Source: a virus. From it: a DNA stretch of 26,136 nt. Shown one piece after another: positions 179 to 26,136 of this stretch. The notes beneath the pieces were generated by a model that was given only the letters and a program-made list of their open reading frames with translations, was not told the origin of the DNA and ran no database searches. A program made the translations under genes and the position numbers. Position 1 is the stretch's first letter. Each line of letters opens with the position of its first letter. The stretch spans positions 1 to 26,136 of IMG/VR virus record IMGVR_UViG_3300021962_000560; one strand, written 5' to 3'.

Positions 179-255
179 TGGGGTGGTCGATGGGGCTCGA
201 ACCCACGACCGCTGGAATCACAATCCAGAGCTCTACCAACTGAGCTACGACCACC
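179..255 (-). tRNA. tRNA-His (GTG)
   Basis: Reading the minus strand gives a complete cloverleaf. The acceptor stem GTGGTCG pairs with CGACCAC, an extra G at position -1 faces C73 (the hallmark of tRNA-His), and CCA is encoded. The D-arm reads GCTCAGTTGGTAGAGC, the anticodon arm CTGGATTGTGATTCCAG carries anticodon GTG, and the T-arm contains GGTTCGAGCC. The gene is intact. The prophage lies on its 5' side, which is unusual for tRNA-targeted integration (see findings). Confidence 0.97.
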
Positions 256-12090: not shown

Positions 12091-13071
12091 TTAGGCGACC
12101 ATGCGGCCTTGGAACTGCGCGCCGTTGCAGGTGAGGTTGCCGGCCCAGCCCAGGATCTGAACTTCTGCGTCCTGGTTGATGGCGTAGCGACGATTCGGCG
12201 ACAGCGGCACCATGTTGCGCTGCGCGTGCGGGCGCCACTTCAGGTACTTCGTGTTGAGGAAGAACCCGGTGTTCGCAGGGCAGTAGCCGCCGATGCCGCC
12301 GTCCAGCACGACGTCCGCGTCCATGAACTTGATGGACGGGAAGCCGAGGTTGGCCGTGTCGGGCGACGTGAAGCGCTGGATCGCCTGCAGCGACGCGACG
12401 TAGTAACCCCAGTAGTTGCTGTCGAACACGATCAGGTCCGGCCGGTCGGTGCCCCGAACGGTCTGCGACCAGAGGTTGTTCATGCACGACTGGATGTTGG
12501 CCGCGGAGGCCGCACCGCCGGTGAAGGTCGACACGTCCAGCAGCTGGCTGCGCCAGAAGGTCCAGGTCGCACGGTCGATGCCACCGTAGGTGCCGGAGCT
12601 CGGCGCGGTGGGCACGGCAGCGCCCAGGCCGGTGATCTCCTTGCCGCCGGAGCCGGTGCCGTCGGAGTACACCGACTGCGCCAGCTTGTTCACCATCGTC
12701 GCCTCGGCGACGTTGATGCGGGCTTCCATCAGGTCGATCAGCGCTTCCTTGCCGCTGTTCTGCAGCATCTCCAGGCCGGACATGATGACCGGCACGGCGA
12801 ACTGCTTCAGATCGAACTGGGCGGCGCTGATAACGTCCTGAGCGGCCACCGGCAGCAGGTCGTACCCGCTGTAGAACCCGGCGTTGCCGTTCTCAGCGAA
12901 CGACAGCTCCTCGATGATCACGTTGCCGCCCGAGATGGTGCGGACGTTGCCGCGCTGCTGCAGCTTGGCCAGCAGGGCGTTGTTCTTCGTGACGTTGTCG
13001 GCGATGGTGCGCGACCGATTCTGGATCGTGGTCGCGATGATGTCCGTGATGGACGAATTGGCGAATGCCAT
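12091..13071 (-). CDS. Major capsid protein
   Basis: The 326-aa protein has a long N-terminal helical arm (SITDIIATTIQNRSRTIADN), then NVRTISGGNVIIEELSF, then FYSGYDLLPVAAQDVISAA. The central part includes VPVIMSGLEMLQNSGKEALID and the P-domain-like AEATMVNKLAQSVYSDGTG. This order is typical of HK97-fold coat proteins in this phage group. A C-terminal strand-rich part contains VVLDGGIGGYCPANTGFFLNT. It has no N-terminal delta domain, in line with a separate scaffold gene upstream. GAGGAG precedes the ATG. It has its own structured leader and a terminator behind it, suggesting a high-output segment of the operon. Confidence 0.9.
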   Translation of the reverse strand: MAFANSSITDIIATTIQNRSRTIADNVTKNNALLAKLQQRGNVRTISGGNVIIEELSFAENGNAGFYSGYDLLPVAAQDVISAAQFDLKQFAVPVIMSGLEMLQNSGKEALIDLMEARINVAEATMVNKLAQSVYSDGTGSGGKEITGLGAAVPTAPSSGTYGGIDRATWTFWRSQLLDVSTFTGGAASAANIQSCMNNLWSQTVRGTDRPDLIVFDSNYWGYYVASLQAIQRFTSPDTANLGFPSIKFMDADVVLDGGIGGYCPANTGFFLNTKYLKWRPHAQRNMVPLSPNRRYAINQDAEVQILGWAGNLTCNGAQFQGRMVA

Positions 13072-24760: not shown

Positions 24761-25297
24761 TCAGTCGGTGCCACCGTAGCCACCAGGCCCGTCGGCGGCT
24801 CCTACGGCCTCCTGTGCGGTCGGGGTTTCGAGGGTGTCAGCGGCTTCGGCGCCTGTCTTCGGATCAATGATCTGGTACTTACCCCGCGAATTGCGTTGCA
24901 GATCAATGACTTCCGTCTGCTGCTCGACGGTTTGTGCCGTCGTTGTGCCAATCTGCCGCCCGCCCAGCCAGGCCAGCTCGAGCCTGATGCCGCCGTCGAC
25001 GGTCTGGTTGATCTGCGTGGGCAGCACCTTGGCCACCAGGCCGCAGAACGCGGCCCGGTCGCTCTGCGTGCCCTTGGCCAGCTGCGCCAAGTACTGCACG
25101 CCGCCGACCTGGTCGAACGCCTCGAGCACCGCGTCGCGGAGGTTGATCAGCCGCGACTTCTGGCCCTTGGGCCGCCCTGGCCCCGCCGGCAGCGCCTGGC
25201 CGTTGCGTGGGCTGACCGCGACGATTTTTCGGTCACCCTTCGGTTTCGCCACCGCCGCAGGCTGCGCCCGACTCACCGTTGCACTTTCCAACATCAT
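24761..25297 (-). CDS. Terminase small subunit-like protein
   Basis: The 178-aa protein has a basic N-terminus leading to GPGRPKGQKSRLINLRDAVL (about 39-58), a motif widely seen in small terminase-like phage proteins. Helices with YLAQLAKGTQSDRAAFCGLVAKVLP (69-93) follow. The C-terminal part is less ordered, Thr/Gln-rich, ending Gly-rich. The basic GRPKG segment followed by a helical domain fits DNA recognition and oligomerisation in packaging. It lies upstream of the large terminase, separated only by the G-tract gap and the DUF3310 gene. ATGA overlap with the zinc-ribbon gene. A general DNA-binding protein is the alternative. Confidence 0.65.
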   Translation of the reverse strand: MMLESATVSRAQPAAVAKPKGDRKIVAVSPRNGQALPAGPGRPKGQKSRLINLRDAVLEAFDQVGGVQYLAQLAKGTQSDRAAFCGLVAKVLPTQINQTVDGGIRLELAWLGGRQIGTTTAQTVEQQTEVIDLQRNSRGKYQIIDPKTGAEAADTLETPTAQEAVGAADGPGGYGGTD

Positions 25298-25506
25298 GCT
25301 GCGATTCTCTCAACACCGAACAATCGCTGCTCGGCTGCTCTGACGATGCGTCTGGCTGCTGTCTCGGTGACGCCTGGCAGTGCGAGCTCGAACCAGAGCC
25401 TGCCGATCTCGTCGTCTGACAGCCGCGGCCGGCTGCTTGCGCACTGCCTGCACTCGCTATCCAGCGGCACGTGGTGTTTGCATTCCGGCATCGTGTTGCG
25501 GTTCAT
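25294..25506 (-). CDS. Small zinc-ribbon-like protein
   Basis: This 70-aa protein begins with a metal-site pattern C9-x2-H12-x6-C19-x2-C22. A helix-rich part follows (about 29-66: LSDDEIGRLWFELALPG, then TAARRIVRAAEQRLFG). AAGGAG lies eight bases before the ATG at 25506. The stop overlaps the terminase-like start as ATGA. It is the first gene after the 260-base repeat block. The combination of a small zinc finger and a helical domain suggests nucleic-acid or protein binding, perhaps with the packaging machinery. No known family name. Confidence 0.65.
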   Translation of the reverse strand: MNRNTMPECKHHVPLDSECRQCASSRPRLSDDEIGRLWFELALPGVTETAARRIVRAAEQRLFGVERIAA

Positions 25507-25584
25507 GCGTCAGCTCCTTCGCTCCCAGTTTGCCCAACCCTTGGCCCCTGCTTTGGGCCCCAATAACCCCACGCTCAGTAGGGC

Positions 25585-25599
25585 TGCACGCGGTGCACG
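25585..25599. repeat. Two inverted copies of the phased hexamer (TGCACG)
   Basis: TGCACG at 25585-25590 and 25594-25599, nine bases apart, are the reverse complement of CGTGCA found at 25721-25761. The local sequence TGCACGCGGT is the reverse complement of ACCGCGTGCA on the far side of the large stem. Confidence 0.5.
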
Positions 25600-25607
25600 C
25601 GCTCTCC

Positions 25608-25625
25608 CCCCCCCTAAAGGGGGGG
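25608..25625. other. C7-TAAA-G7 hairpin
   Basis: Seven C, the loop TAAA and seven G form a perfect 7-bp stem inside a longer C-run of nine. No T-run follows on the minus strand. Similar C-tract/G-tract palindromes with TAAA loops occur as dispersed short repeats in some Burkholderiales genomes; I cannot confirm that here. Confidence 0.6.
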
Positions 25626-25654
25626 AATGAAGCGAGTGCGGATGCGCGTGCACC

Positions 25655-25712
25655 CAGCAGGGGGCAGGCCCCCGCCCATGGCGGCGGGGCCTTGCCTGCC
25701 CCAACCCTGCTG
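25655..25712. other. Large interrupted stem-loop, 22 bp in three blocks
   Basis: CAGCAG pairs with CTGCTG (6), GGGGCAGGC with GCCTGCCCC (9) and CCCCGCC with GGCGGGG (7), closed by a CATGGC loop. All bulges are on the right arm (CCTT at 25690-25693 and AACC at 25703-25706); the left arm is continuous. Such regularity in a non-coding stretch suggests a structured RNA or protein-binding DNA site. Confidence 0.65.
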
Positions 25713-25720
25713 CACCAGCC

Positions 25721-25761
25721 TGCACGTGCAGTGCACGTGCAACCGCGTGCAACCGCGTGCA
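25721..25761. repeat. Four helically phased CGTGCA repeats
   Basis: CGTGCA starts at 25725, 25736, 25746 and 25756, spaced 11, 10 and 10 bp. The first two copies lie in the palindrome TGCACGTGCA and the last two in a perfect tandem AACCGCGTGC. One-turn spacing puts all copies on one face of the helix, as in iterons or activator/terminase sites. Confidence 0.65.
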
Positions 25762-25766
25762 CGCCC

Positions 25767-26117
25767 TCATTCCGGTGCTCCTTTCCACATCGCCGGCGCC
25801 CCTGAGCCCGATGCCGCGCGCAGCTTGCCCACATCCGTGAGCGCCAGGCACTTGGCCTTGGCGCGGTTGCTGCGCACGTACTCGGCCTCCTCGATGAGGC
25901 CGTCGCGTTGCATGCCGAACAGCGTTGCGAAGAACTCGCGCCTGTCCATGCGTGCTGGGAAGCCTTCGGCGCTGCTGAGTGCGATCCAGGCGTTGTTGTT
26001 GGCCTGGGCGGACATGGACAGGCGCTGGCCTGCGTGCTCCGCGTCCAGCAGCAGGCGCAAGATGGCTGCGCGTTGTTGGTTGCGCATGAGCGAGGCGGCG
26101 GCCGCCTGGCCTGGCAC
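25767..26117 (-). CDS. Possible winged-helix protein, start uncertain at the window edge
   Basis: The frame encodes up to 116 aa from the GTG at 26117 but stays open to the window edge (FTRFGT before that GTG), so it may be the end of a longer protein. An ATG at 26087 (MRNQQRAAIL) is another start; neither has a good ribosome site. The region RREFFATLFGMQRDGLIEEAEY followed by KCLALTDVGKLRA has the helix, wing and LT-x-x-G pattern of small winged-helix proteins. No Cys-rich or catalytic motif. It lies upstream of the repeat block and might bind it, which is speculation. Confidence 0.45.
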   Translation of the reverse strand: MPGQAAAASLMRNQQRAAILRLLLDAEHAGQRLSMSAQANNNAWIALSSAEGFPARMDRREFFATLFGMQRDGLIEEAEYVRSNRAKAKCLALTDVGKLRAASGSGAPAMWKGAPE

Positions 26118-26136
26118 GGTGCCGAACCGCGTGAAG

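Follow-up and report, generated by a model that had tools for sequence, protein, structure and literature searches.

What is the function of the 260 bp of repeat-filled non-coding DNA that lie upstream of the terminase genes in this phage fragment, and which protein reads the repeats? The fragment comes from IMG/VR and was analysed over its whole length of 26,136 bp (the window). The first-pass annotation regarded the layout of the stretch at 25507-25766 as too regular for a passive spacer, and named a late operator, a packaging initiation site and a replication origin as candidate functions. The structural genes that we read are encoded on the minus strand. The element is preceded, on its upstream side, by an ORF which runs off the contig and has an open 5' end, and downstream of the element follow a small zinc-ribbon-like ORF, a terminase-small-like ORF, the genes of a DUF3310 protein and of the large terminase, and the portal gene. 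The features are, in minus-strand order:

25767-26135, minus strand: 3' end of rep, coding for the C-terminal winged-helix (WH) domain, the proposed reader of the iterons; cut by the contig end, the full protein has about 706 aa
25721-25763, minus strand: left array of iterons, with four TGCACG units in tandem at 10/10/11-bp steps (TGCACGCGGT twice, TGCACGTGCA twice) with overlapping inverted copies; the arrays of the relatives are syntenic
25655-25713, no strand assigned: H1, a GC-rich bulged hairpin with a three-block stem, which separates the two iteron clusters; many relatives have GC hairpins with other stems there
25644-25654, minus strand: left arm of the right element, GGTGCACGCGC (iteron), of an 11-bp perfect inverted repeat
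25605-25627, minus strand: core variant TTCCCCCCCTTTAGGGGGGGGGA, a C-run/G-run hairpin where most relatives have TAGATAGGGTGTGGG; L030 and L032 are similar
25592-25602, minus strand: right arm of the right element, GCGCGTGCACC (inverted iteron), of the inverted repeat
25585-25590, minus strand: another inverted copy of the iteron (minus-strand CGTGCA), from the repeat count
25507-25584, no strand assigned: remaining non-coding stretch to the next ORF, from the ORF map
24761-25297, minus strand: terminase-small-like ORF (TerS), the downstream neighbour (phrog_11043, E 3e-7)

The repeats were where the first-pass annotation had put them: on the plus strand CGTGCA starts at 25725, 25736, 25746 and 25756, that is at steps of 11/10/10 bp, with an additional copy at 25647. 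The inverted copies noticed at 25585-25599 are also present (minus-strand copies at 25585 and 25594), and to these we can add three unlisted ones at 25721, 25732 and 25758, which arise from the near-palindromic nature of units such as TGCACGTGCA. Both the C7/G7 hairpin, which is the C-run/G-run variant of the core, and the three-block bulged stem were found again. The regularity is well beyond chance. CGTGCA/TGCACG occurs 10 times in the 260 bp, compared with a mean of 0.35 and a maximum of 5 in 1000 dinucleotide shuffles, and the repeat score of 310 (102 +/- 20 after shuffling) was reached by none of the 1000 shuffled sequences. By repeat scoring this is the densest stretch of the window. Over the whole window CGTGCA is without excess (29 observed, 38 expected), therefore it is the clustering that constitutes the signal. 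The stretch is GC-rich and, on reading, shows no evident AT-rich unwinding element; the DnaA box types that were searched for are absent from the window's array.

To see what is constant in the element we turned to related phages, of which about 100 viral loci were fetched and 42 distinct arrays analysed. The layout recurs: tandem near-palindromic iterons of about 10-11 bp, in most cases a GC hairpin, then inverted iterons flanking a G-rich core. The comparison of repeat spacing proposed at the outset thus shows tandem units at 10-11 bp in the relatives, too, and the array is syntenic, the order rep, element, terminase-small gene being kept in the loci read even where other genes are inserted. 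The core has a TAGATAGGGTGTGGG-like consensus, which includes a TA-rich stretch in the relatives and scores above shuffled sequence for most of the 42 arrays, to which the motif had itself been fitted. A C-run/G-run core stands in place of the consensus in the window, L030 and L032; in the window, whose core is of this diverged form, the TRT that separated the G runs is lost. In 6 of the 42 arrays a DnaA box lies directly 3' of the right arm (five times TTATCCACA, once TTGTCCACA), and in the 14 genomes with a located array two perfect DnaA boxes were found in the origin and none elsewhere. Being present in those six arrays only, the DnaA box was rejected as a general marker. The same applies to GC skew, as cumulative skew had no consistent extremum at the site in the relatives. 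Covariation in H1 (flank pairing exceeded the permutations) was not used as evidence because the test is biased by picking the best hairpin of each phage beforehand.

In the near-complete relatives (34-43 kb) a tyrosine-integrase-like gene is followed by genes for a repressor-like and a small HTH-like protein, after which comes that of the ~706-aa Rep; the first three names come from reading translations in three genomes. One of the relatives, L032, has upstream of its rep a further cluster of 8-mers in the origin dialect (G001:C1, oriented position about 17951), which could be an autoregulatory site. In the window a tRNA-His is predicted near the start (179-254, minus strand); it may mark the attachment region, because in the relatives the integrase-like gene comes after the structural genes. 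The major capsid protein (12091-13071, minus strand) shares 63-70% identity with its counterparts in Stenotrophomonas phage BUCT555 and Myxococcus phages Mx8/Mx9, whereas the terminase-small-like protein had no match in the phage collection. Between 18000 and 20000, across a 661-aa ORF, GC content drops to 0.48-0.53 from ~0.66 in the surroundings; the ORF is perhaps a recently acquired tail-fibre-like gene.

The ORF that precedes the element had been described as a 116-aa winged-helix gene. The winged-helix fold is indeed predicted (pLDDT 87 for the C-terminal 122 residues; Z 9.7 of the model to WH proteins of the DtxR/MarR/PadR type), the gene, however, is not a whole one but the C-terminus of a longer ORF cut by the contig end. 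Its product shares 71% identity with residues 586-706 of L035 Rep, a full-length protein whose architecture comprises a putative primase, an RSF1010 RepA-like helicase and the C-terminal WH. The helicase is recognized by Pfam (AAA_25, E 9e-36, L035 Rep), by phmmer against RSF1010 RepA (E 1.4e-6, L035 Rep), by hhalign against IncQ1 RepA (probability 95.6) and by Foldseek against the RepA structures 1nlf/1g8y/1olo (TMt 0.75-0.79). The RepB-type primase signal is weak (Pfam E 0.029, below the cut-off; hhalign probability 0.5; low pLDDT in that part), and the DD...TSP motif was aligned by hhalign to the RepB-type primase at this low probability; we regard the primase as putatively of the archaeo-eukaryotic type (AEP). 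When the WH fragment alone was searched against PHROGs there was no match, and a sub-threshold Pfam match to an ECF sigma factor (E 0.0039) was taken as chance.

The most informative property of the iterons is that their unit, uniform inside each array, varies by phage (TGCACGCG, TGCGCTCGCA, GGTGCACCGCAC, TGCACACGC, CGGGACA). These dialects track the WH domain: among 39 phages dialect distance correlated with WH distance with a Mantel r of 0.617, the permutations ignoring phylogeny, and with a partial r of 0.537 (p 0.001) when TerS and TerL were given. The corresponding partial correlations were 0.109 (p 0.006) for TerS and 0.006 for TerL, and that for the rest of Rep, given WH, was -0.109 (34 phages). 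The five dialects nearest to that of the window belong to phages with 70-74% WH identity, yet 40-49% TerS identity, whereas its nearest TerS relatives (58-64%) have other dialects and WH identities of mostly 38-47%. Judged by these identities, the window is a natural swap of dialect and WH against TerS. The WH domain reads LSMSAQANNNAW in all six phages sharing the dialect of the window. A second swap was seen in a small sample, the few phages with CGGGACA iterons: in the two with complete Rep (L036 and L053) the match to the family stops at residue 503 and the C-terminus of Rep is different. On present evidence TerS, with its partial correlation of 0.11 to dialect, is not the reader of the repeats. 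The zinc-ribbon protein, also proposed as reader, is encoded by a small CxxC-containing ORF at 25294-25506 (minus strand); it is unlikely to have this role because tblastn found zero matches to it in the fetched relatives.

A genome scan with the Rep alignment extended the comparison to prophage-like loci of 27-42% identity in Alpha-, Beta- and Gammaproteobacteria, 75 of which were usable. A core of the G4-8/TAT-type/G4-8 pattern (GGGGGTATGGGGG-type) lies between -150 and +500 of the rep stop in 51 of the 75, which is not a blind count because the pattern had been derived from some of these loci beforehand; 24 loci are without it near the rep stop, and elsewhere there were 6 hits in 1.09 Mb of flanks. 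Despite the non-blind count, the contrast between rep stop and flanks is large. The densest repeats are at the rep stop in 47 of the 75 loci, and dialect again correlates with the C-terminus of Rep (r 0.50, partial 0.36) but not with the helicase (partial -0.01). The core may be on either strand relative to rep, and the ORFs picked as next after the element vary. It is most likely that phages and prophages across the Proteobacteria carry similar origins, with quite different repeats, at this position. In Wolbachia phage WO (L223:5180-5420; KX522565.1, about 62144-62384) direct and inverted TGGCAA/AAGATGGCAA repeats flank CCTATATAGAGGG immediately 3' of a RepA-like ATPase gene, adjoining an AT-rich stretch, and we consider this array a candidate for the phage WO origin.

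We propose that a temperate phage starts its replication at the repeat patch and that the reader of this origin is the C-terminal WH domain of the phage's own Rep, and estimate the probability of this reading, which is based on sequence comparison, at roughly 0.87. Of the three functions initially considered this one is supported by the tracking of Rep WH by the dialect, by the position of the element at the rep stop in distant prophages and by the DnaA box of some arrays. It fits best because of the linkage to a putative primase-helicase-WH protein, the dialects that track the DNA-binding domain of this protein, and the DnaA boxes in 6 of 42 arrays. What weighs against it is the diverged core of the window and the negative DnaA box search there, the want of an evident AT-rich unwinding region, the GC skew of the relatives, the weak primase signal, the Mantel permutations that ignore phylogeny, the small number of CGGGACA phages and the 24 distant loci without the core pattern.

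The same observations bear on the suggestion that the patch is a packaging initiation (pac) site bound by the small subunit of terminase. In pac of phage P1 hexamer clusters flank the cleavage region, and a P1 pac-like arrangement could be seen in the hexamer clusters described here, all the more as in the family of the window the element is just upstream of the terminase-small-like gene and a small dialect-TerS correlation is left over. This reading has nevertheless become quite improbable: across the terminase mismatches the dialect follows the WH of Rep, distant prophages tie the element to the rep stop with varied ORFs next to it, and some relatives carry DnaA boxes. A late operator or promoter, or a terminator, between the early (rep) and late (terminase) genes, which could coexist with an origin, would suit the early/late junction at which the site is found in relatives, the GC hairpin and the TA-rich stretch within the relatives' core. 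A scan of 25507-25766, however, found neither a sigma-70-like promoter nor a T-tailed terminator, in distant prophages the strand of the core relative to rep is not fixed, and dialects tracking Rep would be unexpected if a separate regulator read the site; we thus hold this possibility to be very improbable. Either a pac site or a late operator could overlap the origin. A structured cis-acting RNA or untranslated-region element is hardly credible, as the strong predicted fold (z -5.7) is matched by the opposite strand (z -5.3), which must be so for inverted DNA repeats, Rfam had no match at the element, and the iteron sequence varies with a DNA-binding domain.

The comparison on which the origin reading stands covers architecture, position, chance tests, dialect-WH tracking, core conservation and the DnaA boxes of relatives; that Rep binds the DNA, that the site opens and is primed, and what each hairpin does is what we infer. 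Copies of Rep would dock with their WH domains on the ~10-11 bp iterons, along one side of the helix and beside their own gene, and a second set of Rep would be held at the G-rich core by the flanking inverted iterons. The core region would then open and the helicase load, and the primase would begin synthesis in or near the exposed loop, so that the core may serve as priming site; in some relatives host DnaA may assist. A more general proposal, to which we give even odds, is that these elements represent a widespread, undescribed family of temperate-phage origins. Such an origin would combine an iteron array with a core of the GGGGGTATGGGGG type, both at the 3' end of the gene for a primase-RepA-WH protein; WH and iterons would be an exchangeable, fast-diverging specificity pair and the core would be fixed as opening or priming site. 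A fixed-motif search of the openly licensed literature found no report of the core in phages. If the proposal is true, the family would provide a natural data set for the recognition code of winged helices, and would place a candidate origin in Wolbachia phage WO. What were unexplained intergenic repeats in the window are now a candidate origin of replication whose proposed reader, the WH of Rep, can be named, and for each relative it can be predicted that the iterons match its own WH domain. With so many dialect/WH pairs the specificity of protein-DNA recognition in phage replication can be tested directly, and the core pattern can serve as a probe for origins in prophages without annotated ones.

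It remains to compare the element with known replication systems. In iteron origins such as phage lambda O/ori and P1 RepA/oriR direct repeats phased with the helix lie close to the initiator gene, in some cases together with a DnaA box. The features of an iteron origin found here are phased tandem repeats beyond chance, an adjacent initiator with a predicted WH, and repeats that track this WH; what differs from lambda and P1 is that the repeats follow the gene of a multi-enzyme initiator on its 3' side and surround a G-rich core, and that the dialects turn over fast. The origin repeats of phage P4 probably differ in sequence and layout from the arrays described here. The alpha protein of P4 contains primase, helicase and WH in one polypeptide, the WH binding the origin repeats (PMC4234260), and Rep may resemble it in this fusion layout, for which the helicase and WH parts are supported and the primase weakly. 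P4 alpha has a Toprim-type primase (PMC4234260), whereas full-length Rep had no Toprim match in the Pfam scan, and the helicase of Rep is, unlike that of P4 alpha, of the RepA/DnaB class. The replicons of pRN1 (ORF904) and phage BIP-1/BPP-1 encode primase, helicase and WH in one protein, whose gene is directly followed on the 3' side by a stem-loop, and the pRN1 and BIP-1 origins were placed 3' of their rep genes (PMC4234260). In pRN1/BPP-1 the helicase belongs to SF3 and the stem-loop is without iterons (PMC4234260), here there is a RepA/DnaB-class helicase and the iterons are tandem and dialect-specific. With IncQ/RSF1010 the element shares a RepA-class hexameric helicase, an iteron array, hairpin elements and possibly an AEP primase. 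In the IncQ plasmids that were fetched no G-TAT-G core turned up, and the repeat units here are 10-11 bp compared with the 22-bp spaced repeats of pCP52E-IncQ1. The oriV of RSF1010 has iterons and ssiA/ssiB, of which ssiA is a hairpin with a GTG proposed as primer start (PMC4434180); hairpins are present here, too, as possible counterparts. IncQ/RSF1010 employs three proteins (RepA helicase, RepB' primase, RepC iteron binder), here there is one fused Rep: a separate RepC initiator was not encountered, similarity of Rep to RepC is not detectable, and the WH is part of Rep itself, whose gene, unlike in IncQ/RSF1010, directly adjoins the proposed origin.
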